From Comamonadaceae bacterium (lineage in GTDB: Bacteria > Pseudomonadota > Gammaproteobacteria > Burkholderiales > Burkholderiaceae_C): DNA of 39,170 nucleotides. Under the pieces are notes generated by a model, which saw only the letters and a program-made list of their open reading frames with translations, had not been told where the DNA came from and ran no database searches. Where the stretch lies: the NCBI GenBank assembly GCA_007279715.1, contig QYPA01000147.1, forward strand, positions 1 through 39,170, given 5' to 3'. Positions 1 through 30,573 of the stretch are shown here, one piece after another (the stretch's first letter is position 1; the number at the start of each line of letters is the position of its first letter). The translations under genes and the position numbers were made by a program.

Positions 1-771
1 GGACACATGGACACGGAGCTGCCAGGCTTGTGGTTTAACCAAGAAGAGCTTTTGTCCTTGGTCACAATCCAGCAGCTGCTAGAACAACTCGAACCCGGGC
101 TCTTAGGCGCCAAGCTCAAACCGCTGCATGACCGCCTTGTCGATCTATTGGAAAAACAAGGGCTTACCAGCCAAGACATCGCCCGTCGCATACGGATTGT
201 TCATGCTGGCAAGCGCAAGGTCACGATTAAGTCTTTTGAAGGAGTCGCCGCAGCGACCATGGCGAGGCAGAAAATCAAGATTTGGCACTTTAGCCGCCAG
301 ACAGGAACTACCACCGAGCGCACCGTTTCCCCCCAGCGCCTAGTTCATTACCGCGACAATTGGTACTTAGACGCGTGGTGCCATATGCGCGACGATGTTA
401 GAAGCTTCAGTATTGACGCCATCACCAAGCTCAGCATCTTGGATGAAAAGGCCAAAGAAGTCAGCGACAAATCGATAGATGAAACGGTGGGCGCAGGGTA
501 TGGAATTTTTGGGGGAGCGCCCAAGGCTTGGGCCAAGCTGAAATTTACGCCTGAGCGTTCACGATGGGTCTCAGGCGAGAGTTGGCACCCGAACCAGCGC
601 AGCAGCACTGAAAAGGATGGGAGTTACATTCTTGAAATACCGTATTCTGATGAACGTGAGCTCATGGGCGACTTGTTGCGCTATGGGGCGGATGTTGAAG
701 TGTTGGAGCCAGCAGACTTAAGGAAGCGGATCAAGCGGGCGCTTCATGATGCGGTAGGTAGGTATGTTTGA
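1..771 (+). CDS. WYL-domain transcriptional regulator, 5' end cut by window
   Basis: The frame is open from the first base, and the first ATG (position 7) falls inside a sequence typical of the middle of WYL regulators (ELPGLWFNQEELL). The N-terminal winged-helix DNA-binding domain therefore lies upstream of the window. The visible 254 residues contain a linker helix region, the WYL-type Sm-like fold (about residues 75-145, including RDNWYLDAWCH, the family's characteristic stretch) and a C-terminal WCX-like segment ending in RIKRALHDAVGRYV. WYL proteins bind nucleotides or nucleic acid and often control defence islands (the BrxR and CapW type). Its codon use is more GC-rich than that of the genes that follow, so it may belong to the island backbone rather than the AT-rich cargo. 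A role as repressor of the adjacent cluster is inference from position. Confidence 0.85.
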   Translation, partial: GHMDTELPGLWFNQEELLSLVTIQQLLEQLEPGLLGAKLKPLHDRLVDLLEKQGLTSQDIARRIRIVHAGKRKVTIKSFEGVAAATMARQKIKIWHFSRQTGTTTERTVSPQRLVHYRDNWYLDAWCHMRDDVRSFSIDAITKLSILDEKAKEVSDKSIDETVGAGYGIFGGAPKAWAKLKFTPERSRWVSGESWHPNQRSSTEKDGSYILEIPYSDERELMGDLLRYGADVEVLEPADLRKRIKRALHDAVGRYV

Positions 772-1022: not shown

Positions 1023-1799
1023 ATGGTTAATAAATTTCAAGGAGTAATTTCTAGAGCCCCTTTTTTTGGAAAAGCCGAAATTCTCCCTCGAATAGTGATA
1101 CCCGCTAAAGGCGATAAATTCTTTGCCACTTCAACAATATCTCCTTTAATAATTGCTGAAGTGCTTGTCGCCCCAGTAGCACATGTTAATAAAAAATCAA
1201 AAATAAAGCAAGAAATTAGGGAGGGTTGGAGTCGCGAAATTCGTCAAGGCGATTTTTCAAAAGTTGTTCCAGGTGCAAAATCGATAATAATTAGCGCAAG
1301 GAATTCATGGAATTTATATGATAACAATATAAATATTATTGAAACCGCCTATATTCTTGATGGTGCAAATTATTTGAACGAACTAGTTGCTGAAGCGAGT
1401 ACTATAGAAATACCAATTGTTATAATTTTCGATAAAAATGAAAATGAAGAACTGTCAATAAGAAGTCAAATTATAGAAAAAAATACATCTAGCGTAAACG
1501 ATGTAAGATTTAAAGTAGGTACTAATGCTCCGAGACTCCCAATTGATGAGAATTGGAAGGATGTGAAAATAAAAACTGATCCATTTGTAATAAAAACAGG
1601 AATGGGTTATACAGCGGCGATAAATGTAATTGAAAAAAAATCGAAAATCATTCATCACATATTAATTGGAGCTAAATCAATAGGTAATGAACTGGAATTT
1701 ATTCGACTTAAGCACGGCACGCTTGTAGATATTGAGCTGAAAATCAGAAAACAATCGGCAGATCAAAAGTCGCAGTACGAAGTAGAGGTTTTAAATTAA
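1023..1799 (+). CDS. Hypothetical protein, first gene of forward defence unit
   Basis: This 258-aa protein matches no family I recognise. ATG at 1023 is preceded by AGGA four bases upstream. It is rich in Ile, Lys and Asn, with alternating hydrophobic strands (PIVIIFDKNENEE, IIHHILIGAKS) suggesting a soluble alpha/beta protein without signal peptide or membrane segments. A stretch AYILDGANYLNELV near residue 108 faintly recalls the DG motif of DGQHR proteins but lacks the Gln-His-Arg part, so I do not assign it. Its stop lies one base before the start of the GIY-YIG gene, and the next genes follow within 12 bases, so it is very probably co-transcribed with the GIY-YIG, DGQHR and SNF2 genes. 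It could be a sensor, an immunity partner or a structural subunit; the sequence does not say which. Confidence 0.75.
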   Translation: MVNKFQGVISRAPFFGKAEILPRIVIPAKGDKFFATSTISPLIIAEVLVAPVAHVNKKSKIKQEIREGWSREIRQGDFSKVVPGAKSIIISARNSWNLYDNNINIIETAYILDGANYLNELVAEASTIEIPIVIIFDKNENEELSIRSQIIEKNTSSVNDVRFKVGTNAPRLPIDENWKDVKIKTDPFVIKTGMGYTAAINVIEKKSKIIHHILIGAKSIGNELEFIRLKHGTLVDIELKIRKQSADQKSQYEVEVLN

Positions 1800-1800
1800 T

Positions 1801-2229
1801 ATGAGATATGGATGGTCTTTAGAGAAAGAAGATTGGACTATTCTTCATCAATTATTAAGCGATACAAAGTGGACCAGGGTCTATCTTGAGCGTGAGTACA
1901 AAGATAGTATTCCGAACAAGCCTGGCGTTTACATTATATGTGGAAAGACCGAAGCGATTGGATTTATGGGGGAAGCTATAAGTAAGCTTAATAATGCTGT
2001 TTACGTCGGTCAATCAATTAATTTGAAGGGTCGATTTCAAGACCATGTGGCTGGATATGGAAAAGTTAAAAAGGCAAAACTAACATTTCGCAGACTTGAG
2101 TATTGGTGGACGGAACTTGAAAAAGGAGATTTAAGTAGGATCGAGCAAGCGCTTGTTAATGCGTTGGGTCCGAGCGCAAATGAGGTTAATGTGATCAAGG
2201 CAAAAGTTGGTGAACCTGTACGAATTTAA
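1801..2229 (+). CDS. GIY-YIG nuclease-domain protein
   Basis: This 142-aa protein is essentially one GIY-YIG domain. The first motif is PGVYIICG (about residues 41-48), the second AVYVGQS (about 67-73), followed by the catalytic arginine in LKGRFQDH and the metal-binding glutamate in RIEQALVNALGPSAN, in the order expected of the fold. These residues cleave DNA with one divalent metal in UvrC and homing nucleases. There is no added DNA-binding domain, so specificity would have to come from a partner; the adjacent DGQHR protein is the obvious candidate. It begins one base after the upstream stop and is followed by AAGGAG and the next start within 12 bases, so the four genes form one operon. Role as the cutting subunit of a modification-sensing system is inference. 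Confidence 0.8.
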   Translation: MRYGWSLEKEDWTILHQLLSDTKWTRVYLEREYKDSIPNKPGVYIICGKTEAIGFMGEAISKLNNAVYVGQSINLKGRFQDHVAGYGKVKKAKLTFRRLEYWWTELEKGDLSRIEQALVNALGPSANEVNVIKAKVGEPVRI

Positions 2230-2240
2230 GGAGATTATAA

Positions 2241-3629
2241 ATGATTGTTTTTCCTGCTATTAAAGCGAAAATGGGATCCTGGGATTATTTCATGGTCAAA
2301 ATGAATATGCGCGAACTTTCTGAAAATGTTAAGTTTGCAACCGACGTGTACGATGACCATACATTAAGCGAGGCAATCCAACGTGTTCTTAATGAGTCCC
2401 GAGCCAAGACTAGTATTGCAACATATTTGGTTAAACAAAGAGATCGTTTTTTCTCTTCTATTGTTGTAGCTGCACTCGATGGAAATCCTAATTGGTATCC
2501 GGTTACGATGGAAGAGGATCCACGATTCGACTTATTTAAAGGTGATAAGCGGCTGAGTGAGTCATTTGGAGTACTTTCCTTTGATGGGTCGCAAAATTAT
2601 TATGCTCTAGATGGGCAGCATCGCCTAAAAGCAATTAAATCATTGGTAGACCCGACTAGTGAAATGTCTTTACAGGCACCTCCGGATTTCAAAAATGAAG
2701 AGGTTAGTGTCATAGTTGTAGTACCAAGAGCAGCCGAAGATATGACAGAATTTATGAGGCGATATAGACGGTTATTTGGGAACTTAAATCGTTATGCAAA
2801 ACCAATGGATCCAGTAACTAATATAATTATGGATGAGGATGATTCATTTGCAATTGTTACACGAGAATTAATTAGTGAGTACGAGTTTTTTAAATGGACA
2901 GGTAGGCATCGCAGTTCTGCTCGCGTTAAGACTGAAGGTGGTAAAAATATTAAAAAAACGGATTCTTACTTCACGAGCCTTGAGACTTTATACAACATGA
3001 ATATCGAATTACTATCATCGATTAAAAGAAAAAGTGCTGGCTGGGATGCGGATGGTGTACAAAAAGATGATTTTCGCAGATTTAGGCCTTCAGAGGATGT
3101 TATTGAGAGTTTATATAAGGAATTACAGAGCTATTGGGATGGTCTTCTTAAAACTCTTCCTGTTCTGCGCAATAAACCAGTAGACATGAGAGACCATAAT
3201 GCAACTGCGGAATCTGGTACCGAAGATAGCATATTCTTTTGGCCGATAGGTCAGCAACTATTAGTTGAGGTAGCAAGAAAACTTTTAAATTATCAGCCCG
3301 ACCCGGATAATCCGACTGTCGAATCGATTGAAAAAGCATTAAAACCTTTAGCACACATTAAACACAACTTTAAAGATGTTCCATGGCGACACCTTCTTTT
3401 AATTCCAGACGATCAAGATTGGTCGAATTGGAAAATTAGAAATGAAGACCGTCCTAAAGCTGTGAATCTTGCAACTAGAATTGTAATGTGGCAAATAGGG
3501 TTAGATGAGCTTTCAGAGCAAGAGATTGAAGAGCTTAAGAATGAATGGACGTTAAAACTTTTACCAGCTTTAACTGATGATCAAATTCATTCTCTATGGG
3601 ATAGTATTGAGGACGGGGTGCATCGCTGA
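2241..3629 (+). CDS. DGQHR-domain (DndB-like) protein
   Basis: This 462-aa protein carries the signature YALDGQHRLKAIK at residues 121-133 (DGQHR at 124-128). DGQHR proteins include DndB, the regulator and DNA-binding partner of phosphorothioation (dnd) clusters, and related proteins of other DNA-modification clusters such as Dpd. The N-terminal part (FSSIVVAALDGNPNWYPV, then SFDGSQNYYALDGQHR) has the usual strand-rich layout around the motif. The C-terminal half is helical and has no motif I recognise. A good AAGGAG lies seven bases before the ATG. It lies 11 bases after the GIY-YIG gene and 3 bases before the SNF2 gene. In SspE, a similar DGQxR motif takes part in sensing phosphorothioate DNA, so a sensor role is attractive here; that is inference. 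Confidence 0.85.
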   Translation: MIVFPAIKAKMGSWDYFMVKMNMRELSENVKFATDVYDDHTLSEAIQRVLNESRAKTSIATYLVKQRDRFFSSIVVAALDGNPNWYPVTMEEDPRFDLFKGDKRLSESFGVLSFDGSQNYYALDGQHRLKAIKSLVDPTSEMSLQAPPDFKNEEVSVIVVVPRAAEDMTEFMRRYRRLFGNLNRYAKPMDPVTNIIMDEDDSFAIVTRELISEYEFFKWTGRHRSSARVKTEGGKNIKKTDSYFTSLETLYNMNIELLSSIKRKSAGWDADGVQKDDFRRFRPSEDVIESLYKELQSYWDGLLKTLPVLRNKPVDMRDHNATAESGTEDSIFFWPIGQQLLVEVARKLLNYQPDPDNPTVESIEKALKPLAHIKHNFKDVPWRHLLLIPDDQDWSNWKIRNEDRPKAVNLATRIVMWQIGLDELSEQEIEELKNEWTLKLLPALTDDQIHSLWDSIEDGVHR

Positions 3630-3632
3630 TTT

Positions 3633-5156
3633 ATGCTTTTGAACGAAAGCATAATTGCAACCGTAGAAAACTATAACGGAGTGTGTAAAGTAGAATTAAA
3701 ATCTACCTTACATCCCATGAAGCATAGTTTACGCAATAAACAGTTAATTCAAAATTATCTGCGCGGGGATGCGATACTGAGAAAGAAGTTAAGCAATGGA
3801 CAAATTCTAGAAAAGATATTTAATCCGAAAGAATCATCTGATGATAAAATCATTTCCCTCATCCGACCGTACATATTGCCGTTAAAGGTTATAGATTCAC
3901 TATATGATTATCAGCGGTTAGGTGTTGCTTGGTTACTTTGTCATCGAAGGGGTATTCTTGCGGATGACATGGGCCTTGGTAAAACTTATCAAGCGATTTC
4001 TGCTGCAAGAAGATTAATTCGTAGCGGACGCGTGGATTGGGGCTTGATAGTTGCACCTAAATCGTTATTAATTAATTGGTTAAATGAGTTTAAGAAGTGG
4101 GCTCCTGAAATAAAAGTTTCAGCTGTTAGCCGTTCTGATATAGATAAAAATGGAGGTTGGTTAAAATTAATTAATTCGAATCACCTTGTAATAACCACAT
4201 ATGAATCGCTACGTGGAGATATAAGTGAAATACTTTCTAATCCACCGGATTTAATTATCGCCGATGAAGCTCACCGTCTCCGTAAGCGAGATTCTTTAAC
4301 TTTTCAAAGTTTTAGAAATATTCATTCAAAATACTTATGGGCATTGACGGGGACTCCTCTTGAAAGATCATCAGAGGATTTAGTTGTATTGATGTCGTTG
4401 ATAGAGCCTCGACAGTTTTCAATGAATGATCTCTCAATACATCGTTCATCATTACAAGCTAGGGCTCGCCCTTACTTTTTAAGAAGAATGAAACTCGATG
4501 TTCTTTCAGAACTACCACCAGTCATTGAAAGAGTTGAGGCAATTGAGTTATCAGCAGGTCAGCGTAAAAATTATGATTTGACATTACGTAACAACACCTT
4601 TTTGAATCATCTCGCTCAATTTAGCAAATTACGCGAAATATGTGATTATGACGATATTAGTAAGGAAAGTTCAAAAATTGACAGGATAATTGATTTGGTT
4701 TTAAATATTTGCGTTTCGCGTGAAAAGGTTGTAATATTTTCTTACACGCTCAAACCATTGATGATTATTTCTGAAAGATTACAAAACCAGAATATAGAAT
4801 TTCAAATGTTAGTTGGAGCTCAAACCATTGATGAGCGTGTGAGAGTTATTGATGCATTCAAAAATAAATCTGAATGTTCTGTATTGCTTGCCTCCACTAA
4901 GGTTGCAGCAGAGGGATTCACTTTTACAGAGGCAAATAATGTTATTTTTGTGAACAAGTGGTGGAATCCATCTTCTAATTCACAAGCGAGGGATCGTTTA
5001 GTTAGGATAGGTCAAAAGAAAGTTGTTCAAGTAATTAGCTTTAAATCAACTCATACGCTAGAGGAATCGCTCGAAAAGATATTAAGCGATAAGCAGAAAA
5101 CCTTTGATCAAGTCATTTCGGCTTTATCAACTAAAGGATTAGATCAAGTTATTTAA
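3633..5156 (+). CDS. SNF2-family DEAH helicase/translocase
   Basis: This 507-aa SF2 ATPase has a complete SNF2 motif set. A Q-like motif DYQRLGVAW is followed by Walker A ADDMGLGKT (residues 110-118), DEAH (211-214), the motif III-like WALTGTPLER, and in the second RecA lobe VVIFSYTLKP, STKVAAEGFTFTEANNV and the arginine-finger motif SQARDRLVRIGQ. Enzymes of this kind translocate on double-stranded DNA rather than unwinding it. It is short for the family: an 85-residue N-terminal extension and no extra C-terminal domain. SNF2 proteins also occur in Dpd and DISARM clusters. It starts three bases after the DGQHR stop and ends two bases from the convergent PAPS-reductase-like gene, so the two units abut tail to tail. 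It probably supplies the motor for the forward module. Confidence 0.9.
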   Translation: MLLNESIIATVENYNGVCKVELKSTLHPMKHSLRNKQLIQNYLRGDAILRKKLSNGQILEKIFNPKESSDDKIISLIRPYILPLKVIDSLYDYQRLGVAWLLCHRRGILADDMGLGKTYQAISAARRLIRSGRVDWGLIVAPKSLLINWLNEFKKWAPEIKVSAVSRSDIDKNGGWLKLINSNHLVITTYESLRGDISEILSNPPDLIIADEAHRLRKRDSLTFQSFRNIHSKYLWALTGTPLERSSEDLVVLMSLIEPRQFSMNDLSIHRSSLQARARPYFLRRMKLDVLSELPPVIERVEAIELSAGQRKNYDLTLRNNTFLNHLAQFSKLREICDYDDISKESSKIDRIIDLVLNICVSREKVVIFSYTLKPLMIISERLQNQNIEFQMLVGAQTIDERVRVIDAFKNKSECSVLLASTKVAAEGFTFTEANNVIFVNKWWNPSSNSQARDRLVRIGQKKVVQVISFKSTHTLEESLEKILSDKQKTFDQVISALSTKGLDQVI

Positions 5157-5158
5157 AT

Positions 5159-6001
5159 CTATTTGTGGCAAACAAGACAGGCACCACCTCCTTCATCCTC
5201 AAGGTAAAGCTCATCTAGATCTAGATTTTCTGAATTGCAAACTCTAAGTGGGTTAATTTTTCGGTTTGCAAGTTCTCGCTTTTTTCTAACTTCGAAGTCG
5301 GATTTAATTTGTTGAACCCGCTCGGGCTTCTCCAAGTCAGTTAGTGGTTCATTTTGAGACCATGTAAAACGTGTGCCCGTTTCGATTGCTGTTTTCTCCA
5401 TGTTTTTGGCATTCTCGAAAGCTTCAGGATGTCGTTCTTTCAAACGTACCCATTCAATCTTTTGTTGAAAAAAGCAGAATGTGCATCCGCTACGGGAACG
5501 CCATTCATAGTACTTAGGCAATCCTAGCCCGGACGCTTCAAGAATATCTAAGACGCCTTCTTTATTGACGTTAGCATCACGAAAAGGTAATTTAACAGTT
5601 AAATTTTTATGGTTTGATTGCATCCCGTCGCGATGCTCTTCATCAGCCCGTATTGCTACATAAGATATAACTTGATCGCCCTTGTTCAGCCACTCGTTAA
5701 TCCATACCTTAAATGGTTGAAGCTTTAGTTTGATGGTGCACCACCTTGTTTGAGGTGAGGGGAGAAAGTTACCGTTATGCCTTAGCCAGAATTTAAAATC
5801 GCGGTCTGGGTTGAGGTAGTTAATTTTTTTACCAAGTAATCCTTCTAGCTTCCCCAGAAATTCATAGACTTCAGGAAGCTCCTCTCCTGTATCAGTGAAG
5901 AAGTATTGGATGTCAAGTTCAGGAAAATTTTCTCTCATGTAAACAGCAAGGGCTGCACTATCTTTGCCGCCTGAAATTCCAAGAACATGATGCGTAGTCA
6001 T
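5159..6001 (-). CDS. sspD: PAPS-reductase-family ATP pyrophosphatase, SspD-like
   Basis: This 280-aa protein has the PP-loop SGGKDS (residues 10-15) near its N-terminus, which binds ATP and releases pyrophosphate in PAPS reductases, DndC and SspD. Cysteines at RWC (88), CTFC (173-176), 255 and CLVC (275-278) could bind an iron-sulfur cluster or carry sulfur; DndC is a known [4Fe-4S] protein. The likely task is to activate DNA backbone phosphate by adenylation before sulfur insertion. It is much shorter than DndC and close to the SspD type. Its start overlaps the ATPase gene by four bases, so the two are translationally coupled. The symbol rests on family and neighbourhood (DUF4007 plus ATPase), not on a database match. 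A free-standing PAPS reductase for sulfate assimilation is unlikely in this operon. Confidence 0.8.
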   Translation of the reverse strand: MTTHHVLGISGGKDSAALAVYMRENFPELDIQYFFTDTGEELPEVYEFLGKLEGLLGKKINYLNPDRDFKFWLRHNGNFLPSPQTRWCTIKLKLQPFKVWINEWLNKGDQVISYVAIRADEEHRDGMQSNHKNLTVKLPFRDANVNKEGVLDILEASGLGLPKYYEWRSRSGCTFCFFQQKIEWVRLKERHPEAFENAKNMEKTAIETGTRFTWSQNEPLTDLEKPERVQQIKSDFEVRKKRELANRKINPLRVCNSENLDLDELYLEDEGGGACLVCHK

Positions 6002-9000
6002 AGGGATTCCTTGTTATCTTTTGAAACTTTGATGCCAATGTCAGCTAATGCGGCTAAGACAATTCTCGGGTCTATATCTTTAAGCATTGGCAAGATTCGG
6101 TTTGTAGTCTCATCAATCTTTATTTGATCTTTCGTTGAAACCTCGATGGTTTTAGTTAAATCATTTCCAAACCCAGATGAGAAGACGAGGCTAAACATTT
6201 TCCTCGAGGAGTCGCGACCGCGAAGATTCGTAATTGACTCCGCTTTACGAAAATCCATTGAGAGGCTACCGAGCTGAATAATTGCAGCGTCGAGATCTCG
6301 GTCGACCCAAACGTGACTCGGCTTACTTATCGCATTGCTAATAAGTGACTCAATGGATTCAACTGATCCATCGAACTCTTCTAGCCTCGTTACGAATGAC
6401 TCGAGGTGAAAATTACCGGTTATCCCTTTTAAGGACTTTGCTCTCATCCTCAGATCTTCATAGTTATCCGATTCATGTTGCAAAGATGTGAGTATGATTT
6501 TTTTTATTTCAACGAGCTTTTGCGCATACGCGCCTTTCAACTCATCAATGACCTTTACAAGACTTCTAACAAGATCTTGTTCGGACTTCGAGTTCAGGAT
6601 AGTTGGTAAGTCAGCGAACAAAACTTTATTTGGGTCGCTAGCTTTAAGTAGCATCGTGCGGACCTCTTGCGCTAGCTGCGAGACCGTATTTGTACGCTTT
6701 GTCCAATTCGGCAAGGCCATTGCAATTGAAACCAAGCCTCTAGCTGTGTCTAAAGGTGCAAACTTACTGAAGTCCGTTTGCCTGCCTGTTGCTGACAAAA
6801 TATTTTCAGCAATTGCTCTAGATAGACTGCTTTTGTTTTCACCTGCACTAACGTATTTGAACTGAATAAGCTTAGGGTCATTCAGTAGTTCGTCAATGAT
6901 GACTTCAGTGATGTTTGGAGTAAAAACACCATCGAAATAAACCGCTATATGTGATTTATTCGCTAAAAAGTAAGCTAGTGCGATAAGTGGCATCACTCCT
7001 TTCTTCATCCCGAAAGGGGGAGCTTGCCAAACTTCATAAATTTCAGCTAGGCTAACTTTATCTTGAGCTTCTTTAAAAATATTCTCAGTCTTTTCCCAGA
7101 TGCTTTTATACGAGGATCCATATTTAGCATCGTCTTTGGGCTTTCCAAATCCCCATCCCTTGGGTCCTCGGTTGCCGTGTAGTCCTGGAGTATGCAGAAC
7201 GGTGTAATACAGTCCCGCATCTGCTGGATACCCCACGTACCCTAATTTAGACAAACTACCATCTTGGAGCATCTTGTACATCAATTGCCGACGTGCTTTA
7301 ACTATATTGCTAGATAGTTCATCTTTATTGATAAGTTCGCTGTTAATCTCAGGTGTCTCACCGAACACATCTTCAGCGATTTCAGAAGCGATGCTTGAAA
7401 GCGTTGAATTTTTCTTGCGTTGAATTAATGAGCCATCGCGGTACCAGCTTGCACTTTGATAAGCGTCTACTAGTTCCTCTTGTAATGTGGCTTTTAAGCT
7501 GTTGATTCTCGAGTTAAGTTCACGCCTTGCAACTGAGTCACCCTCAAGTTCGGTGCTACTTGAAAAAACACGTTCTGCGGCAGTTAACTCTTGTGAAATT
7601 TCAGTGAGCTTCTGTGCATTTTTTGAAATGCCTATAAGAATAATTTTCTCAAGATGACCTTTTGAAAGCTCCAATATTGAATTTTGGAGCTGCTTTTCTG
7701 TCATTTGCGAGTCAGGTACGCAAAGCACAAAGGCACCTACACTTCCGAGGCTAGCCTTGTAGGTAGCGAGGTAGTTAGCAAGTTCACTCAAGGGGGTGAT
7801 GGTTTTAACGAACCAACGCATCGTTCCTTTCTCGTGATAAAGGCGCTTGGCAATGATTGGATTTAAATCACTTAATTCTGTAATTGCCTTAATATTAAAA
7901 GCGGTTATTTCGTTGCGAGATGACTTGATTGCATTTTCAATGTCAAAGTCACTACCAGCAAAAACACCATAAGCATCTAAGTGTTTTCTCTCAATTAGAA
8001 TTTTCCAATCTACAAGTTCAGCTAGAACACTCGCGGCTTGGGTCTTTTCTTTCGACGAAAGGCATGAAGTGATAGTTGAAAGATCAGCTGCTAGTGCTGC
8101 TCCAGTTCTGAACATTTCAATCAAGGCAACTGTTTTGGCTACCTGTACATGAAGCTGACTACCTTTTGCTTCAGCACGTTCCACTGAATCAACTGCTAAG
8201 GCCCACCGATGTCCGTCCGGAGATGCCAATATGGCTGGTTCCGAGTTCGACCGCAGGTAGTCCCAGTAATTTGATGGAAGATACATGGCATCCCATGCAA
8301 GCTTAGTTGACTGCAGATGTTCAATGAAGCCGAGGGGTTCTCTGGACGTTAAAAATCCAAAAATACTCCGCTCATTTTGACCAAACTTCCGCCGGGATAT
8401 CGGACCTAAAAGTGCAGTAACGGCAGGATGAAGTGGCCAACATGCGAGAAGCGCCTTTTCTAAGTTTTCCGGGGATGCAGGTCGCCGTTTCTTAATATTT
8501 TCAGCAATTATTTTGCTAATCTTTTGAACCGAACTTAAATCGATTTCAGTACTTTTTTTAATCGATCTTCCAATGAGTTCAATTACTTCGTCAGTCGCTG
8601 CCACCAACGGGATATCAATAAATCGGCCTTGAATTTTGGCCCAATCATCCCGAGTTTGCCTTCCAAGCGCAGTCGCGTATGCTTCAAAAGGTTGGTGAAG
8701 TATTCCGACAACAACGAAATTGCCTTTACTTCGGCTTGCAGCCTCCGCCAACTGCTGAAAGAAGTAGATATCCTCGCCGCCCTCAAGGGCCGAATTTTCT
8801 AAAAACTTACCCAACTCATCAATGATTAAAAGCAGACCTTGCTGATTTTTTTCAGAAAGCGCTACAAGTTCAGCTATCAGATCTGTGGATTTTTTCTTAG
8901 ATAGAACGAGGCCTGTCCGCTTTTCAATTGAAGCTATTAATTGCTCTCTGATGTTTGCCCTTTTCCCGACCACAGGCAGAACAGTCCACCCCTCTCCTGA

Positions 9001-9357
9001 GGATGCAAATGTTTTATGAACAGTAGAAGCGTTCGGAAGCGCAAGGATCTTCTTTGCTTTTTCTCTTAGAACAGCATTTGGCCCGACGAGTGAGCACAGC
9101 ATCAAAGCAAGTGAAGATTTACCTCCACCGTAGGGCCCAGTCCAAGTAAAAGCACGTTGCTTTGTTTTCAGAATTTGCTCTGACATGCTTTCGAGCAATG
9201 ACCTAGCGGTGCCTTGACATACGTAACCCGACATTGCATCTTCACGCCCAAAATCATCGTCGATTTGTATCGAACGAAGAAACTGCCGCGATATTTCTAC
9301 TGCTGATAGCAAAGTTTTTTCCTGACTCAAATCTATATTGGCGTTATTTTTAGTCAT
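5998..9357 (-). CDS. sspC: Large P-loop ATPase, SspC-like partner of the DUF4007 protein
   Basis: This 1119-aa protein has Walker A GPYGGGKSS (residues 74-82) and Walker B LLLIIDELGKF (175-185) in an N-terminal AAA/STAND-like ATPase domain. The rest is long and mostly helical, with a conserved-looking patch WQAPPFGMKKGVMPLIALAY in the second half that recalls the large ATPases of BREX and phosphorothioation clusters. It overlaps the DUF4007 gene by 8 bases upstream and the PAPS-reductase-like gene by 4 bases downstream, the tight order expected for sspB-sspC-sspD. In Ssp systems the ATPase supports the sulfur-modification complex. The assignment to SspC comes from order and ATPase motifs; BrxC-like is the alternative, but no PglZ or BrxL is present. 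I could not check whether its length agrees with described SspC proteins. Confidence 0.75.
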   Translation of the reverse strand: MTKNNANIDLSQEKTLLSAVEISRQFLRSIQIDDDFGREDAMSGYVCQGTARSLLESMSEQILKTKQRAFTWTGPYGGGKSSLALMLCSLVGPNAVLREKAKKILALPNASTVHKTFASSGEGWTVLPVVGKRANIREQLIASIEKRTGLVLSKKKSTDLIAELVALSEKNQQGLLLIIDELGKFLENSALEGGEDIYFFQQLAEAASRSKGNFVVVGILHQPFEAYATALGRQTRDDWAKIQGRFIDIPLVAATDEVIELIGRSIKKSTEIDLSSVQKISKIIAENIKKRRPASPENLEKALLACWPLHPAVTALLGPISRRKFGQNERSIFGFLTSREPLGFIEHLQSTKLAWDAMYLPSNYWDYLRSNSEPAILASPDGHRWALAVDSVERAEAKGSQLHVQVAKTVALIEMFRTGAALAADLSTITSCLSSKEKTQAASVLAELVDWKILIERKHLDAYGVFAGSDFDIENAIKSSRNEITAFNIKAITELSDLNPIIAKRLYHEKGTMRWFVKTITPLSELANYLATYKASLGSVGAFVLCVPDSQMTEKQLQNSILELSKGHLEKIILIGISKNAQKLTEISQELTAAERVFSSSTELEGDSVARRELNSRINSLKATLQEELVDAYQSASWYRDGSLIQRKKNSTLSSIASEIAEDVFGETPEINSELINKDELSSNIVKARRQLMYKMLQDGSLSKLGYVGYPADAGLYYTVLHTPGLHGNRGPKGWGFGKPKDDAKYGSSYKSIWEKTENIFKEAQDKVSLAEIYEVWQAPPFGMKKGVMPLIALAYFLANKSHIAVYFDGVFTPNITEVIIDELLNDPKLIQFKYVSAGENKSSLSRAIAENILSATGRQTDFSKFAPLDTARGLVSIAMALPNWTKRTNTVSQLAQEVRTMLLKASDPNKVLFADLPTILNSKSEQDLVRSLVKVIDELKGAYAQKLVEIKKIILTSLQHESDNYEDLRMRAKSLKGITGNFHLESFVTRLEEFDGSVESIESLISNAISKPSHVWVDRDLDAAIIQLGSLSMDFRKAESITNLRGRDSSRKMFSLVFSSGFGNDLTKTIEVSTKDQIKIDETTNRILPMLKDIDPRIVLAALADIGIKVSKDNKESL

Positions 9358-10279
9358 GACCGTACGCAGCCTCGAGTAATTTTTTCTTTAATGACTCAAT
9401 GCTTTTGTCCGAATTATTTTTTAACGTTACTTGACGAAGACCTGCTTGCTCCGTCCATTGAATCTGACCTTTGCTTAGTTGCTCCAGTCTAATAAGCCTC
9501 TCAGCGATTACGCCCTCATCCATTTTTAGTACTCGTCCAGGAGAACCGTAATCGTGGGCTATGCGATCAAACGCCATAACAGACCCAGAGTTTTCAAGTT
9601 TTTGCCAGTAGTCAAGTAGTGTGTAGCCAAAGATACCGTCATGAAGTGACCGTTTAGCACCTCTACGAAATTCAAAAGAATCTTTTGAGTTGTGAACAAC
9701 AAGGCCTAGTTCACCGAGAAGGGGCTCACTAAGCTCTTCAGGAGAGTCACTATCGACACGGGGAACGTAGCTACGAACGCAGCATTCAACATCTCGCTTA
9801 AGAGTTGCACTCGAGATTTTTATCGACCGTTCTTTCAGTGCGTCAGTGATTGAATTTGCAATCAACTCTCTGTCAAATACCTGCTGCACAACATGATTGA
9901 AAAGGTAATACCAGGTAGTTGTTCTCTCAGGATTGCTAGCTAAAAACCAATGCATCAACCAGATTGTTGCAATGTCTTCACTGTACGGATCTAGACCGTC
10001 ACGATCATCAAAGATGAGCTTTCCTATTGATGTTGTTTCATAGTGATCAGGTGTTTCTACGAGGATATTGCAAGCAAGCGCCCAAAAACGAATCGAGCTG
10101 ACCATATTCTTGCCTACACCGAAATCAACTATTGCCGATTCATCCGCAAATAGTGATTTCCTTGCGCCTTTTGTGTCGTAGGTAACTGCGTCGAATGCTT
10201 TTTTTAGCCACAGCTGACGCAAAGGAAAGGTCTCGTGACCTGAGAACTGAGGCTTTTTACCTAGGATCGATTCGTTCAT
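9350..10279 (-). CDS. sspB: DUF4007 protein, SspB-like DNA nickase candidate
   Basis: The 309-aa sequence contains two stretches typical of DUF4007: FSGHETFPLRQLWLKK (residues 12-27) and FGVGKNMVSSIRFWA (53-67), followed by a helical region with TWYYLFNHV. DUF4007 is, to my knowledge, the family of SspB, described as the nicking enzyme of the SspABCD phosphorothioation system that modifies one strand. No classical nuclease motif is evident by eye. The gene opens the sspBCD-like run and lies 170 bases downstream of the methyltransferase gene, a gap that holds an extended -10 promoter and an inverted repeat, so this run may have its own regulated transcript. The 3' end overlaps the ATPase gene by 8 bases. 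Confidence 0.85.
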   Translation of the reverse strand: MNESILGKKPQFSGHETFPLRQLWLKKAFDAVTYDTKGARKSLFADESAIVDFGVGKNMVSSIRFWALACNILVETPDHYETTSIGKLIFDDRDGLDPYSEDIATIWLMHWFLASNPERTTTWYYLFNHVVQQVFDRELIANSITDALKERSIKISSATLKRDVECCVRSYVPRVDSDSPEELSEPLLGELGLVVHNSKDSFEFRRGAKRSLHDGIFGYTLLDYWQKLENSGSVMAFDRIAHDYGSPGRVLKMDEGVIAERLIRLEQLSKGQIQWTEQAGLRQVTLKNNSDKSIESLKKKLLEAAYGHD

Positions 10280-13123: not shown

Positions 13124-14470
13124 TCATGACCAGGGAGTTATCTTTTGCTTCGGAGGCCCAAATCCGCGAATACTAATCAGCTTAGCGTGCTCATGAACTA
13201 CTTTTTCATAGTCTTCATGAGCCCCCCCAAGACCAACAGCCATTCGCTCATAACCAGCACCATGCATGTTTAAATTTGCCGTGACCGGTTTAAAAAATTT
13301 AAATGTGAATGGTGTACCGTTGATTGATAAAGGCTTAGCTACAGCATCACGTAAAAATTTGATGTCTGCACCACCACCCGCCATGACAACAATGATTTCA
13401 TTAGACAATCCGGCTGTCTTAGAGAAACTGTTAATTGTCGAATAAGCATTTCTAAGGCAGGCTTCTACCCCACCACTAATAATGGCAGCCATAGAGTCGA
13501 TCTCAGATGAATTCACTAAGTCTTTCAAAGAAAAGTCTATGCCTGAAACATTCATACGTTGGATTTTGAAAAGATTCTCTTTATGGAATCGGATCGCATC
13601 TTGAATTTCCGCTTTTTTTGCATCGAAAATCTTCGGATTTGATTCCCTCATAAGGGATAGTAAAACACGGTCTATCTCATCACCTGCTTTAAATACGCTG
13701 GTCGCTGGTCCTGCCGGAATGAGACGAACTCCTTTGTTAGTCCTTCTATCTGGTGATAAATGCTGGAATACGCCAATATCGGTTGTGCCAGCACCAACAT
13801 CTACCACCATGCAAATTTGTCGTTCGTTATCTGTGTTGAGTAGTAATTCGACTGCAGCAGCTATTGGTTCAACAGTGTCAATGTCGACTGAAAGTTCAGG
13901 AAGAATTTCTGTGGGGTCAGAAGGATTTGTCCATGAACATAGAACTTCGGCAGTAGTAACACCCCAGTCACCAGCTGAAGCCATATTCACAGCCATCCAT
14001 CCAATTTGTCCGAGCGCACGATCGGCATCCACTTTAATGGACGACGGCCAAACTGGGTGTGCAATTCGAATATTAGCCATATTGGGATCGGCTGGCACAG
14101 ACCACAGTCTCGATTCATTTGCCGAAAACAGTGCGTAACCCATCAATCCTGTCAAAACACATCTTCGTGTGATTTCTAAGTCGGGATGAATAAGTCGATT
14201 CAGGAGCTTAGGCTCTGTCAACCAGCGTTTGGGACTAGTTATTGATATCGCAAGTTTTCTTTTGCTAAGGATCGCATCTTCTGCGTGCTGACCAAAACGA
14301 ATCGTCTTTAAGTCATCGTCAATACAGAAAGCACTTGGAATAGATGCCCCATCGATACGTTGCACAGTGGTGATTTGCCCAAGAGGTATTACTTTTCGAT
14401 CCGAATTACTTTCACGAACGACCGCACGAATAGAGCTAGTTCCGAAATCAAGACAAAGAACTGATGTCAT
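13124..14470 (-). CDS. Hsp70/actin-fold ATPase
   Basis: This 448-aa protein has the three nucleotide-binding signatures of the Hsp70/actin fold: phosphate-1 CLDFGTSSIRA (6-16), phosphate-2 VVDVGAGTTDIGVF (222-235) and adenosine motif VVMAGGGADI (361-370). It ends soon after the nucleotide-binding domain, so there is no DnaK-type substrate-binding domain or lid; it is an Hsp70-like ATPase, not a general chaperone. GAGGA lies six bases before the ATG, and the gene starts 9 bases after the stop of the helical protein gene, so the two are a pair. A DnaJ-type zinc knuckle is encoded just upstream, which suggests a dedicated Hsp70 and co-chaperone device within a DNA-modification cluster. Function, such as ATP-gated assembly or activation of the modification or effector proteins, is inference. 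Confidence 0.85.
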   Translation of the reverse strand: MTSVLCLDFGTSSIRAVVRESNSDRKVIPLGQITTVQRIDGASIPSAFCIDDDLKTIRFGQHAEDAILSKRKLAISITSPKRWLTEPKLLNRLIHPDLEITRRCVLTGLMGYALFSANESRLWSVPADPNMANIRIAHPVWPSSIKVDADRALGQIGWMAVNMASAGDWGVTTAEVLCSWTNPSDPTEILPELSVDIDTVEPIAAAVELLLNTDNERQICMVVDVGAGTTDIGVFQHLSPDRRTNKGVRLIPAGPATSVFKAGDEIDRVLLSLMRESNPKIFDAKKAEIQDAIRFHKENLFKIQRMNVSGIDFSLKDLVNSSEIDSMAAIISGGVEACLRNAYSTINSFSKTAGLSNEIIVVMAGGGADIKFLRDAVAKPLSINGTPFTFKFFKPVTANLNMHGAGYERMAVGLGGAHEDYEKVVHEHAKLISIRGFGPPKQKITPWS

Positions 14471-14479
14471 TTCACATCC

Positions 14480-15793
14480 TCATACTGGCGAAACAATCGC
14501 AGGAAGAACAATTCTGTATGTGCTGTTTTCACGTTTAAAAATTACAGCAGGTTTCAATATACGCACATTTGTTATTGATGTTTTATCTTCATTTTGAAGT
14601 CTGTGTGATACAGGATCAAATGGCAGGACTTCTCCCAAAGTACCTAGAAGTTCGATGCTGTTTAATTTTGCGGCTTCAAGTAAGCTGGAGTTCAATAAAG
14701 ACAATTTACTGGAATCATCTTGCGATGTATAGAAGTCATGCCAACTTGGTAACAGGCGCGCATAAATGGATGTTGCAGTGTCTTCAAGATTAAGGTGGTT
14801 TGGGCCCGAGGCTTTTAGTTGCAGCAAAGAGGCGTTCGTGCGAGATGATTCATCAAGATGTTTATCAAAATTTCGATACGCGCTTTTGAATACAGGCAGC
14901 AGTGTTTTTACGTAGCTGGTTCCATCTTGACCACCAGCTGAACATAGATCCGCCATTAAAGACAATGTCGGTCCTATTAGCTGCAATTCAATTTCCTGAG
15001 CGATTTTTTTATGACCGGTTGTATTCAGCTGATCTAGGATTGATCGAATGGCCAACGCAAATGGCCCAAGAAGTACAACAGCAGGGTGAGCAATTCGAAC
15101 TTTATGCACGGCTATTTTTAAAAGACTTGTGAGCGCTGATACAACTTTTTTTGGCTGTGGTGCGGCGAGCAGCGCATTGATAAAGCGTACTGCTTCTAAT
15201 AAATTTATAGAAGCTGACTCAGCGGATGTATTTTTAGCGAAATCAAGATTCAACTCCGAAAACTTAATAAGCATCAAAGCTTTTTTTTCATCAACGCTAG
15301 AGCTTTTTACATTGAGCAACACAATTTCTAGAAGTTCAACAGCAGATTGTGATGTTTTCTCTGCCCACTTTAATAGACTGCTTAATCCTTTTTTGTCTAG
15401 ACGGGCACTTAGTAAATGGGCGGCAATGTAGTCTTTGCACCAATCACCACGAATACTGACCATAAGATCAAGAGCTGCATTGACTAGTTCCGGCTTATCA
15501 AGCATTTCAAGCTGCGGCGGGGCCATAGATCGAAAACGAATGGCTTGAATATTTTTCTTTTTAGCTTCGATAACGCCAGCTGTTTGAGCCCATCGGCAGA
15601 GAGCTAGAGACCGTAAATATTCAAAGTCATCTGTGTCGGCGGAAAGTGTTTTACTGTGTGCGATTGCAGTTAATCTGGCCGCAGCAACCTGCCAGTCAGA
15701 AGATGACTTTTTGGGGTCTAGCAAAAGCTTTTCAAGGCTTAGCGAATAATCGTTTTCGCTGAGTTTTTGGATTTGAGGTGAAGAGCCCTGCAT
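14480..15793 (-). CDS. Hypothetical helical protein paired with Hsp70-like ATPase
   Basis: I do not recognise this 437-aa protein. It is leucine-, alanine- and serine-rich and reads as almost entirely helical, with amphipathic repeats of about 35-40 residues that resemble HEAT or TPR-like scaffolds (for example KALMLIKFSELNLDFAKN, VVSALTSLLKIAVHKVRIAH). There is no signal peptide, membrane segment or catalytic motif. The last 40 residues (SITNVRILKPAVIFKRENST) are strand-rich. The spacing of 9 bases to the Hsp70-like gene and 39 bases to the zinc-knuckle gene places it in the same operon. A reasonable reading is an adaptor, or a stand-in for the missing Hsp70 substrate-binding domain. The Shine-Dalgarno is weak (AAAGAA). 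Confidence 0.75.
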   Translation of the reverse strand: MQGSSPQIQKLSENDYSLSLEKLLLDPKKSSSDWQVAAARLTAIAHSKTLSADTDDFEYLRSLALCRWAQTAGVIEAKKKNIQAIRFRSMAPPQLEMLDKPELVNAALDLMVSIRGDWCKDYIAAHLLSARLDKKGLSSLLKWAEKTSQSAVELLEIVLLNVKSSSVDEKKALMLIKFSELNLDFAKNTSAESASINLLEAVRFINALLAAPQPKKVVSALTSLLKIAVHKVRIAHPAVVLLGPFALAIRSILDQLNTTGHKKIAQEIELQLIGPTLSLMADLCSAGGQDGTSYVKTLLPVFKSAYRNFDKHLDESSRTNASLLQLKASGPNHLNLEDTATSIYARLLPSWHDFYTSQDDSSKLSLLNSSLLEAAKLNSIELLGTLGEVLPFDPVSHRLQNEDKTSITNVRILKPAVIFKRENSTYRIVLPAIVSPV

Positions 15794-16798: not shown

Positions 16799-18448
16799 TT
16801 ATCCAACCACGCCTCTCAAAACCCCATCCGTCTTCGCAGATATCACCCACTCCAAGTGCAACCGAGCCCGGGTCAACCCAACAAACAACAGCTTGCGGTT
16901 GATCTCATCTAACTCCGCAAAGTCACATTCAGTTAGTACCACAGCTGCAGCGGCCTGACCCTTAAACCGCCTAACGGACTCAACCAGAAGCTGCCCCGTT
17001 GTCCACTGCGGCGTACCCGCTTCATCAAACGCCCCCGTAAAGCGGCGAACCGACCAGCTTCCCAAAGTATCCAAACCCTGAAGCTGCGATCTTTCACGCC
17101 CGCGCATGCTGATCACTGCGATATCTTCGATGGCAAAGCCTAGCTTTAAACAGCGCTCAACGGCCAAGATGGTGCAAGGCTTTACCCGCTCTGGCGTTTC
17201 AAAAACAATCGGATCAGGTATTTGCCCTTGGTAGTTGCTTTTACTCTCAACCTCCACGCGGGTAAGTTGAAGCCCATTAATCAGGCTGACCAAGGCTTTG
17301 GGTGAGCGGTAGTTTTCATGGGAGGTGACGGTCACGGCTTCAGGCAGTTCAAAACCTACGCGGTCTCGGTAAAGCTGCTGCTCTGGGTCTTCAAGCAAGT
17401 ACAACTTGCCTTCAGGCTTTAAACGCAGAGTGAGCGCTTCGACCCAATCGGCTTGCATGTCTTGAACCTCATCTAAGACCATGACATCCAAGTCAGGCTC
17501 GCTGTTCTCGAGTAGCGCCATGCATTGGCTTGCGATGGCATCAAAAGCATTTTGCGCAGTAAAGTCCACCGCTTGACCGGATTTTCTGAGAAAGCGCACG
17601 GCGTACTCGTGAAACGTTTCAGCTGGCGTTCTCACAGGCGCAACACGGGCCATGTGATCGGCCAACGCGCGGTTAAAGCACAGGTAGGCGGCTTTTTTGC
17701 CGCTGCTATTGGCTTCTTTTAAGAGGCGAAGGGCGAGTTGGGTTTTGCCAGAACCGGCAGTGCCCACAATGCGGATCGTGCCTGAGGGGACGTCCATGCG
17801 GGGAACCCAAGTTGCCAGTCCGCTTGCAAGCCGAGTGGCATCTTCCAAGATCCGCCCTGACAGGGCTGAGACATCGGCTACGACGTTGAACTTATTTTCA
17901 AAAAAGGCGATCACCCGCTCATGGGTGTACGCGTCGGGCAGGCCTGGGCCTAAAGCTTGGGAGATGCGCGAGACGATGTGATCAATTTCAGAGCTGTCCA
18001 CAATTTGCTCACGCGGCCATTGCACTGTGTCCGACTGCACTAAAACGTCAGTGAGCACCAATAGGTGGTTTAAGTGAACACTTAAAGATGCATCTTTAAG
18101 GCGGCTCATCAAAGCGTTGTATTGCAAGCCGACTTGGCCTGTGACGCTTTTGCTTTGTCCAGAGTAACTTTTAAAGATTCCACCGTTGGAAAAATCAACG
18201 CCCCCAGACTTAACTTCAATTAAGAGGACGTCACCGGCTTGGTTGACCACCACGATGTCAATTTCCCCATGTTGCTCATGCTTTCCTTGCCCCCGAGACC
18301 AGTCCACACTGTGAAAAAGGGTGTATGCATCGGAGAGCCCTCGCTCTAAAGTTTGCAAAAGCGACAACTCCGCATAGCCACCAGGGCCGAAAGCGTGATT
18401 GGCGTGGTTCGCGCCGTGTGCTGGGAGAGAGGGGGAAAGGTGGGCCAT
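16799..18448 (-). CDS. NERD nuclease-domain / UvrD-type helicase
   Basis: Counting from ATG at 18448 (549 aa), an N-terminal NERD nuclease-like domain has GEIDIVV (Asp64) and LLIEVKSG (Glu78, Lys80), matching the D...ExK core of restriction-type nucleases. A superfamily-1 helicase follows: Walker A GTAGSGKT (229-236), DEVQD Walker B (326-330), NYRSP, and a C-terminal VGLTRARLHLEWV. An upstream in-frame ATG at 18517 would add 23 residues of unlikely sequence; neither start has a good ribosome site. NERD-helicase fusions process DNA ends and are frequent in defence islands and plasmids. The gene is more GC-rich than the preceding block. It is divergent from the Sel1-repeat gene, with the shared control region between 18449 and 18610. 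Confidence 0.88.
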   Translation of the reverse strand: MAHLSPSLPAHGANHANHAFGPGGYAELSLLQTLERGLSDAYTLFHSVDWSRGQGKHEQHGEIDIVVVNQAGDVLLIEVKSGGVDFSNGGIFKSYSGQSKSVTGQVGLQYNALMSRLKDASLSVHLNHLLVLTDVLVQSDTVQWPREQIVDSSEIDHIVSRISQALGPGLPDAYTHERVIAFFENKFNVVADVSALSGRILEDATRLASGLATWVPRMDVPSGTIRIVGTAGSGKTQLALRLLKEANSSGKKAAYLCFNRALADHMARVAPVRTPAETFHEYAVRFLRKSGQAVDFTAQNAFDAIASQCMALLENSEPDLDVMVLDEVQDMQADWVEALTLRLKPEGKLYLLEDPEQQLYRDRVGFELPEAVTVTSHENYRSPKALVSLINGLQLTRVEVESKSNYQGQIPDPIVFETPERVKPCTILAVERCLKLGFAIEDIAVISMRGRERSQLQGLDTLGSWSVRRFTGAFDEAGTPQWTTGQLLVESVRRFKGQAAAAVVLTECDFAELDEINRKLLFVGLTRARLHLEWVISAKTDGVLRGVVG

Positions 18449-18610
18449 TGGCTGAAATTCTATGCCTTGGATTGGAAAGCAAAGAGAAAAAGACCTGCAT
18501 TTTTTCGGCAAGCTCATCCGGTGAGCTTGGATAAACCTATTGTGAAGGTCAATTGAAGGTTAAAAGTCTTTCTTTTACTTCTCTCCCCTTTAGGCCCCAA
18601 GGAGTTACCC

Positions 18611-20345: not shown

Positions 20346-20918
20346 TTAAACCAACTCCACAGCGGTTTTCAACTTGCTAGGGCTGCTGTACAGGTAAGCT
20401 GCGGTAGTACTGATACTGCGGTGCCCAGCAAGCGTTTTCAGGATGTGTATCGCTGTGCCTTTGTTGGCAAGAGTTGTCAAAAACGATCTGCGCCCGCTGT
20501 GGCTGCTAGCACCCTCAAGCCCAGCGCCCGCATAAAGCAGTGCAAACGTTTGAGCCAGACTGTTGGCGCTGAATCCCGCTCGAATACTTTTTTGGCTTGC
20601 AAAGAATGGGTAATTGCGGCCCACGCACTTTGTTTGCTCTGCGTAGGCCTGCAGCTCTGCTTTAAGCTTTGCACTGACAAACACTGTACGGGCATGGCGC
20701 CCTTTGGTCATGTCGGGCAGTAAGCGGATCTCATCTTTAATTTCGCCGTCTGTGGTTGTGACATCGCTCCAGCGTAAGCAAGCTACTTCGCCGATTCTTA
20801 AACCCGCCCAGTGTGTGAGCAACATCATTGATCTGTTTCGGGCAGCGTACTTGCGTGTTGTGATGTAGTTCAGTAGTTGCTGCATTTCAGCGATTGAGAG
20901 TGTTTTTGCTTGTGCCAT
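20346..20918 (-). CDS. Short tyrosine recombinase (catalytic domain only)
   Basis: From ATG at 20918, which follows AGGACACAGGACC, the protein has 190 residues; a longer form from 20957 has no ribosome site. It contains the tyrosine-recombinase catalytic set: Arg in GLRIGEVACLRW, a Lys-bearing strand region, HSGRR, GHRS and the nucleophile Tyr in STTAAYLY. The usual N-terminal SAM-like core-binding domain is missing, which is typical of the short integrase-like proteins of plasmids and islands. They may resolve multimers or invert small segments. It is not next to the tRNA, so it is unlikely to be the integrase of the island. Neighbours are the Sel1 gene (convergent) and, across 480 bases of non-coding DNA, HU. 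Confidence 0.85.
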   Translation of the reverse strand: MAQAKTLSIAEMQQLLNYITTRKYAARNRSMMLLTHWAGLRIGEVACLRWSDVTTTDGEIKDEIRLLPDMTKGRHARTVFVSAKLKAELQAYAEQTKCVGRNYPFFASQKSIRAGFSANSLAQTFALLYAGAGLEGASSHSGRRSFLTTLANKGTAIHILKTLAGHRSISTTAAYLYSSPSKLKTAVELV

Positions 20919-21041
20919 GGTCCTGTGTCCTAAATCATGTGTTTGCTTTAGTTGCATTGTGTTTTCATATATTTATCTGGGCAACCTGAGTCCTGCCAAA
21001 TTGACGGGTTACCGAGTAAAAGCAGGGTGAAATGAACTGGC

Positions 21042-30372: not shown

Positions 30373-30426
30373 CACAGCAGTGTAAAGTCAGTTTGCTAGA
30401 AAAGCAACCAGAGGCAGCCAAATAAA

Positions 30427-30497: not shown

Positions 30498-30573
30498 TGG
30501 CTCCTCGACCTGGGCTCGAACCAGGGACCTACGGATTAACAGTCCGGTGCTCTACCAACTGAGCTATCGAGGA
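30498..30573 (-). tRNA. tRNA-Asn (anticodon GTT)
   Basis: The 76-nt gene reads on the minus strand from 30573 to 30498. It has acceptor stem TCCTCGA/TCGAGGA, discriminator G, encoded CCA, a GGTTCGAGC-type T loop and anticodon loop CTGTTAA, giving anticodon GTT (Asn). It closely resembles other bacterial tRNA-Asn genes. The 5' half and upstream flank are repeated at 32672-32712. It is the integration target of the neighbouring islands. Confidence 0.97.

Follow-up and report, generated by a model that had tools for sequence, protein, structure and literature searches.

The closest described relatives of the locus reported here are phosphorothioate (PT)-based defence systems, in which a modification operon (SspABCD or DndABCDE) works with a restriction partner, either the DUF262 and HNH PT-sensing nickase SspE or the separate multi-gene operons SspFGH and DndFGH. 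In EcSspE, PT is read by a tyrosine (Y63, the first residue of a YQR motif) that sets off the hydrolysis of GTP in the DGQxR pocket, and this licenses the HNH domain (PMC13251355, PMC9646914); DndI is described as working comparably, using ATP (PMC11662687). Two restriction modules, SspE and SspFGH, are known to be additive with one SspBCD (PMC8092258). The same study reports 2,678 sspBCD loci, with sspFGH in 196, sspE in 199 and both in 36 more, so that most sspBCD loci are without a known cutter by that search. Here we analyze a 39,170-nucleotide stretch of DNA from a Comamonadaceae bacterium (contig QYPA01000147.1, positions 1 to 39,170; hereafter the window), where an SspBCD cassette faces a forward unit of four genes: ORF1, a GIY-YIG nuclease, a DGQHR protein and an SNF2 ATPase. 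The GIY-DGQHR(-SNF2) module is real, PT-linked and exchangeable; a PT modification-linked GIY-YIG nuclease is itself already in print.

The forward unit occupies the first 5.2 kb of the window on the + strand and comprises ORF1 (1023..1799, 258 aa), the GIY-YIG endonuclease (1801..2229, 142 aa), the DGQHR protein (2241..3629, 462 aa) and the SNF2-family ATPase (3633..5156, 507 aa). The genes abut, with gaps of 1, 11 and 3 bp, a spacing that suggests a single transcript. The stop codon of SspD, on the opposite strand, begins at 5159, leaving 2 bp between the convergent units. The first-pass annotation of this DNA had described these four ORFs and a convergence within 2 bases, and both hold. It had also reported that SspE, SspFGH and DndFGH are missing beside the cassette, which stands for the 39-kb window: hidden Markov models (HMMs) built here detect no FGH, SspE or DEAD-GHKL-PLD module in it. 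No GmrSD_N was found in the window's assembly, which is only 57% complete. A gene for a WYL/WCX-domain regulator (window 1-771, open at the contig start) reads toward the forward operon and lies about 250 bp ahead of ORF1.

Compared with SspABCD-SspE, the locus has SspB, SspC and SspD and a ParB-fold NTPase effector with DGQxR after an xQR motif, but the GIY-YIG nuclease is separate instead of a fused HNH domain, SNF2 is added, IQR replaces YQR and the DGQHR protein has a long helical C-terminal domain. Like SspABCD-SspFGH and DndABCDE-DndFGH, it combines a modification operon with a separate multi-gene, probable restriction operon containing an ATP-driven motor; unlike them, its predicted motor is SNF2 and not HerA/FtsK, and its likely cutter is GIY-YIG. 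The DndB regulator (TIGR03233) also contains the PF14072 DGQHR domain, whereas the window-type DGQHR is tied to GIY-YIG and carries an N-terminal G-x-W-x-Y-Y in place of the G-V/R-Q-A-G/R-x-x-Y/F-Y of six DndB-type copies. The URI/GIY-YIG genes at the edges of Dnd loci (PMC10853773) likewise encode GIY-YIG superfamily nucleases genetically linked to PT modification; the accessible text of that study, compared by description only, does not describe a DGQHR partner, an SNF2 partner or Ssp loci. Type 4 BREX (BrxC/SspC, DUF4007, PAPS reductase, PglZ, BrxL) has homologous modification genes, but no PglZ or BrxL annotation is present among the window proteins scanned, a set that leaves out some small ORFs. 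Our literature search, which did not extend to supplements, preprints and most subscription papers, found no description of the GIY-YIG and DGQHR pair or of a GIY-DGQHR-SNF2 module. A Rhodococcus genome paper places a GIY-YIG gene close to dnd genes and files it under drug resistance.

Relatives of the pair are widespread. In a tblastn search the DGQHR protein had matches in 13 plasmid records, 10 of which are not included in the locus counts. The three records examined have a short gene directly upstream of DGQHR, whose product has GIY-YIG motif residues in common with the window protein at 18-22% identity; SspBCD, DndBCDE or an FtsK-type gene is near, and the third record has SspD just beyond. 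A DGQHR profile of four sequences, run against 84,980 species genomes, yielded the best 80 of 85 confirmed matches, from many phyla, and viral contigs contained two DGQHR loci. The 84 loci analyzed (three plasmid, 80 genome, one viral; designated by L numbers) exclude L003 (2.2 kb; re-examined as L118) and L088, where the HMM found no DGQHR. The loci from which the HMMs used here were made are also the ones on which they were run, so the HMMs are circular for their members but independent for L103-L112 and L118. A GIY-YIG match is present in 76 of the 84 loci and adjoins DGQHR in 75, one of which (L040) is a remnant.

PT modification genes are found in 68 of the 84 loci: 52 with Ssp (three of them, L063, L065 and L067, counted on one Ssp gene alone), 15 with Dnd and one with both. 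Among the other 16, SspD occurs elsewhere in the genome or record for L006, L020, L061, L076, L086 and L087, and DndC over the family cut-off for L043 and L072. No PT modification gene was found in locus, genome or record for L030, L039, L040, L044, L047, L054, L073 and L083 (8/84), L044 having only weak SspD-like and sub-cut-off DndC matches. The flanks of L039 (which has no GIY) and L040 extend almost 10 kb on both sides and those of L073 10 and 4.4 kb; the others are closer to the end of a contig on one side or both. A forward operon commonly found without modification genes, which the first-pass annotation had named as the outcome that would count against it, is thus uncommon. Within the window's own clade (L007-L026, 43-53% identity), SspB/C/D genes are present in 19 of 20 loci, while the twentieth, L020, whose contig breaks off 319 bp upstream, has SspD on another contig. 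SspD was detected in 10 of 397 other genomes of the window's phylum (E 1e-25), and set against this base rate the near-universal presence of Ssp genes in the close clade means that the linkage is not due to chance. Defence genes cluster in islands, and the window itself appears to be one, with integrases beside a tRNA-Asn gene, so the unit could in principle be an unrelated defence system that merely shares an island with the Ssp genes. This explanation is strongly disfavoured, and we regard it as highly improbable, in view of both the excess of PT genes over the base rate and the co-directional operon layout in relatives of several phyla.

The two members of the pair diverge together. Pairwise distances are correlated between GIY and DGQHR (Mantel rho 0.745, n=75) and between SNF2 and DGQHR (0.717, n=10); the correlation is 0.202 for DGQHR and SspD (n=52), which is above all 200 shuffles, and 0.016 for SNF2 and SspD (n=8), a value reached in 89 of 200 shuffles. 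For reference, rho is 0.696 for SspD-SspC (50 loci) and 0.817 for SspB-SspC (48 loci); the co-divergence of GIY and DGQHR is as strong as the former and almost as strong as the latter. Ssp and Dnd labels cluster on the DGQHR tree, yet at least six switches are required. The forward module holds together while passing from one modification cassette to another. The earlier suggestion that the two operons look inherited together is too strong, since the co-inheritance check by distance correlation shows the forward module re-assorting against SspD and SspC. A genome of the window's order provides the clearest single case of an exchanged partner operon, L103. Its cassette of methyltransferase (MT), SspB, SspC and SspD genes follows the window's gene order, with identities of 70% for SspD, 40% for SspC, 50% for SspB and 42% for MT. 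The convergent operon there codes for a protein of DndH/SspH/HerA type together with two partners, one weakly SspB-like and one partly SspC-like; it stands where the window has GIY-DGQHR-SNF2 and faces the cassette in the same way.

The GIY-YIG protein matches PF01541 (29.3 bits, cut-off 22.6) and displays the motif residues G42/Y44, Y68/G70, R78, E115 and N127. Conservation across 68 aligned sequences, including that of the window, is 67 for G42, 68 for Y44, Y68, G70 and R78, 67 for E115 and 50 for N127; every residue counted, N127 included, is present in the window protein, which by these residues is a likely DNA cutter. R and E are the catalytic residues of this family, and N is counted with them. 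At L015:8174-11437, two tandem DGQHR genes stand behind one GIY-YIG gene.

The DGQHR protein consists of a ParB/sulfiredoxin-like N-terminal domain (residues about 8-190), which contains I46-Q47-R48 and D124-G-Q-H-R128, and a helical C-terminal domain. It matches PF14072 (Pfam DndB; 111.5 bits, cut-off 29.1) and TIGR03187 (99.8, cut-off 58.85), and reaches 72.7 bits against the DndB equivalog TIGR03233, far below the cut-off of 328. The Pfam score for GmrSD_N (DUF262) is 15.3, below the cut-off of 33.2, and a C-terminal HNH (GmrSD_C) has no Pfam match in the protein. The AlphaFold2 model (pLDDT 90.9) returned no Foldseek match at E 0.001 or better, the best sensible match being a ParB-N domain at E 0.25. 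A second fold comparison (VIA) ranked ParB Noc 7ng0 best (Z 7.4, rmsd 2.9, 95 residues) and also matched sulfiredoxin 1xw3 (Z 5.7, rmsd 4.1, 96 residues) and BrxU 7p9m (Z 4.1, rmsd 5.0, 115 residues); residues 10-188 align with the SspE structures 6jiv (Z 4.6, rmsd 4.1, 127 residues) and 7drs (Z 4.6, rmsd 3.9, 125 residues). All these matches have Z <8 and are weak taken alone, but the ParB/Srx/SspE group agrees with the Pfam family. The C-terminal domain has no clear fold match, which says nothing on its novelty. As modelled, the protein carries a DGQxR NTPase motif on a ParB/Srx-like fold. The D, G, Q and R of DGQxR are each kept in 85 of 85 aligned DGQHR proteins, and the xQR motif keeps Q in 84 of 84 and R in 82 of 84. 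The first-pass annotation had given DGQxR a part in PT sensing by SspE; published work instead assigns NTP hydrolysis to this motif and PT reading to a separate hydrophobic patch (PMC9646914, PMC13251355). Because a ParB/SspE-type fold and both motifs are kept, the DGQHR protein may represent a split SspE-like switch that acts on a separate cutter, GIY-YIG, and it might also read PT.

Membership of Pfam DndB raises another explanation, in which the DGQHR protein is a DndB-like repressor or controller of PT level, the GIY-YIG protein nicks DNA for sulfur insertion or repair, and no restriction takes place. In Salmonella, DndB regulates transcription of the dnd genes (PMC4507180), and occurrence of the pair with both Ssp and Dnd, and with differing restriction modules, would suit such a role. 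We consider this improbable, since the TIGR03233 score is so low and 6 of 16 Dnd-bearing loci (L005, L042, L046, L052, L069, L077) also hold a second, lower-scoring DndB-type DGQHR. SspB and DndE have already been proposed as nicking components (PMC12707154). Moreover, the pair diverges largely independently of SspD and SspC, and in the window's phylum it is missing from all 10 SspBCD loci that were sampled. A GIY-DGQHR(-SNF2) restriction system would show whether DGQHR proteins are more than DndB-type regulators.

The SNF2 ATPase matches PF00176 (152 bits) and PF00271, with motif I GLGKT (K117) and motif II DEAH (211-214) conserved in 10 aligned sequences; its sequence relatives of solved structure are SNF2-family remodellers plus a snf2/rad54 helicase, 1z63. 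The co-directional order SspD-(0-2 genes)-GIY-DGQHR-SNF2 recurs in seven relatives. Other restriction modules (PLD, FtsK/DndH, DndF-like, both HATPase families and both GmrSD types were counted) occur in none of eight SNF2 loci, window included, versus 7 of 11 non-SNF2 loci (Fisher p 0.013), but mutual exclusion is only suggestive and not significant when reduced to the 2 phylogenetically independent pairs. The count omits L020, which is cut upstream, and L013, which has 167 bp downstream, and scores as absent a GmrSD-type gene 8.5 kb away in L025; L016 and L018 have just 0.75 and 1.3 kb downstream. In four SNF2 loci (L018, L019, L023, L024) GIY is preceded by one more protein, unassigned or DndB-like.

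In the phylum, every one of the 10 sampled SspBCD loci lies near some restriction-like module: DEAD-GHKL-PLD in L104, L105, L107, L108 and L110, FGH in L109, L111 and L112, a DEAD with a DndD-like gene in L106 and the DndH-like operon in L103. For the restriction-module place beside the window's SspBCD, the forward operon is the sole possible occupant. Elsewhere the pair often stands beside FGH, DEAD-GHKL-PLD, GHKL and SspE modules, so other cutters may act alongside it; several partners appear to be interchangeable, the pair being one of them, and at times it is added to another. The place of GIY itself may be taken: in four of six GIY-less loci of the close clade, a GmrSD-type nuclease protein precedes DGQHR, with gaps of 58-77 bp (580 bp in L011). 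The protein of L014 (859 bits to PADLOC SspE) shares a cluster with that of L011, and those of L016 and L026 fall in the cluster of L010, whose Pfam domains are GmrSD_N and HNH.

These co-occurrences bear on a further explanation, that of a backup or suicide effector. Main restriction would then reside elsewhere, in other modules or in genes off the contig, and GIY-YIG held by DGQHR would cut indiscriminately upon inhibition or loss of the PT system. A backup suicide role has been proposed by Rakesh et al. 2024 for standalone URI/GIY-YIG genes, which tend to the edges of Dnd loci (PMC10853773), and besides the many loci where the pair accompanies other modules, L040 fits through its lack of both the catalytic part of GIY and the modification genes. 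Nevertheless, we find this role unlikely: the eight SNF2-bearing loci, including the window, are without any other module searched for (four have the extra protein before GIY), and the order SspD-GIY-DGQHR-SNF2 puts the pair inside an operon, not at an edge.

Side observations on these partners include a set of three genes, for a DEAD-box helicase, a HATPase (MzaB-like in L008) and a PLD-like nuclease, which lies beside SspBCD in 5 of the 10 sampled phylum loci and is a common Ssp partner; it is also present in L004, L008, L033, L051, L053, L074 and L081. A HATPase family of roughly 800-830 aa adjoins the pair in 12 loci (L007, L026 with DGQHR alone, L028, L034, L047, L050, L054, L055, L057, L059, L071 and L087). 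The A4 profile gave no useful match to PDB sequences.

On balance, we judge that the forward unit is probably an exchangeable restriction (effector) module of a PT-based defence system, most likely of an Ssp system. The mechanism that we infer has as its core a GIY-YIG nuclease and a DGQHR/ParB-fold protein acting as one unit, presumably in a physical complex, with the SNF2 motor as an addition in one lineage. Host DNA would be PT-tagged by SspBCD. The DGQHR protein would bind NTP through its DGQHR pocket and, depending on the PT state of the DNA that it meets, GIY-YIG would be either held off or licensed, much as a single SspE chain governs its own HNH domain. With ATP, SNF2 could move along duplex DNA or strip it, allowing the unit to scan; phage DNA without tags would be nicked or cut, and ORF1 may contribute single-strand DNA binding through its OB-like end. 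The reading of the forward unit as a sensing and restriction half, put forward in the first-pass annotation, is thus supported in part: position, linkage to PT genes and the GIY residues speak for it, but the unit may not be the only cutter and, by motif, its DGQHR protein has no SspE-type PT-reading tyrosine. More tentatively, the module may constitute a new class of PT-reading effector in which reading and NTP switching fall to DGQHR, cutting to GIY-YIG and movement to SNF2, each a protein of its own; it would be a mobile cartridge for Ssp or Dnd that fits the slot of SspE, FGH or another module and serves a part of the SspBCD loci for which no restriction partner is known. SspE combines reader and cutter in one chain, and here reader, cutter and motor would be separated. 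The GIY-DGQHR pair, with SNF2 in one lineage, is linked to Ssp and Dnd across many phyla and provides a testable cutter candidate for some such loci.

Several observations weigh against a restriction module of this kind, among them the lack of significance of the SNF2 exclusion and the absence of the pair from the ten sampled SspBCD loci. At the position that corresponds, by motif order and not by superposition, to the PT-reading tyrosine of SspE, the DGQHR family has I in 74, L in 9 and V in 1 of 84 sequences and no tyrosine; near-invariant aromatic residues at 14, 16 and 17 could, as a conjecture, serve in PT reading. No GIY-DGQHR fusion is found in the loci searched, and fusions were dropped as proof of a complex. 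Other modules, established or putative restriction ones, stand beside the pair at many of the 84 loci (FtsK/DndH-type 13, GHKL820 12, PLD 9, GmrSD-type 9). The exchange of GIY for GmrSD comprises 4 phylogenetically independent pairs only and is not significant, and in three loci GIY coexists with a nearby GmrSD-type gene. A DGQHR match occurs in one of 298 other genomes of the phylum sample (G051), at L118 (G051:C41:7600-17798), where GIY-DGQHR lies at the contig end with GIY intact and DGQHR cut by that end. Its neighbours are genes for a cysteine desulfurase, a DEAD helicase and a DndD-like ATPase, and no SspBCD or DndC is present on its 10-kb stretch. In favour of a restriction module, by contrast, is the decayed locus at L040:9400-10000, which has an intact DGQHR, only the last 35 or so residues of GIY, and no SspD or DndC found in its assembly; the stretch ahead of the GIY tail, read by eye, resembles the start of SspD. 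Such a joint loss of the modification gene and the active part of the cutter is consistent with a nuclease whose activity harms untagged cells. The counter-example is L073, where GIY is intact although neither SspD nor DndC was found in the assembly, and the contig-end loci without PT genes are perhaps further ones.

For ORF1, neither the Pfam, NCBIfam and PADLOC libraries nor plasmid sequences gave a match. Its AlphaFold2 model, made from two sequences, has pLDDT <50 for residues 1-167 and is confident only from residue 168; Foldseek found no match to it at E 0.001 or better. The best row of the fold comparison is an epsilon/zeta chain (Z 6.8), and SSB, PriB and RuvB-like proteins, which have OB folds, make up many of the next rows (Z about 5-6). 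The model suggests that ORF1 ends in an OB-like domain of about 90 aa and leaves its N-terminal two thirds without assignment; single-strand DNA binding through this end is a guess. A relative of the C-terminal part occurs free-standing, downstream of DGQHR, in L011. ORF1 was also considered as a degenerate DGQxR protein on account of its ILDGANYLNEL...IPIVIIF stretch, but the similarity is by eye only and the idea was rejected: hhalign of the single ORF1 sequence against 12 neighbour sets, including DGQHR, SspE-type and DndB-like, found nothing, with a probability of at most 0.6%. Longer proteins (604-725 aa) with a second DGQHR-like domain are encoded at L023:7691-9517, L024:7643-9457 and L014:12370-14544; those of L023 and L024 directly precede GIY, the position occupied by ORF1 in the window.

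The modification cassette lies on the - strand, its genes abutting over 5159-10279. SspD (5159..6001) is a PAPS-reductase-like sulfurtransferase of 280 aa (PADLOC SspD 443 bits); SspC (5998..9357) is an AAA+ ATPase of 1119 aa (PADLOC SspC 1281 bits, also PADLOC BrxC 312 bits); SspB (9350..10279) is a DUF4007 protein of 309 aa (PF13182 292 bits, PADLOC SspB 365 bits). SspB, SspC and SspD in one cassette identify an Ssp PT-modification module. Upstream of SspB, and also on the - strand, is a gene for a putative methyltransferase of the PT-associated family TIGR04096 (10450..13029, 859 aa; 528.6 bits, cut-off 150). No cysteine desulfurase or SspA is seen in the window, and the 57%-complete assembly has marginal Aminotran_5 matches only; IscS may substitute for SspA (PMC8092258). 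Phage-type integrase genes are located at 20346-20957, 28990-30375 and 31237-32286, and because the three surround a tRNA-Asn gene (30498-30573), the Ssp locus is probably on an integrative island. Upstream of the methyltransferase gene, positions 13124-15793 on the - strand encode an actin/Hsp70-fold protein (PADLOC PDC-M61B, 121 bits) and a 437-aa protein with a weak PDC-M61A match, another candidate defence pair. A further candidate defence gene, for a 572-aa protein with a NERD nuclease and a UvrD-type helicase, is found at 16799-18517 on the - strand.

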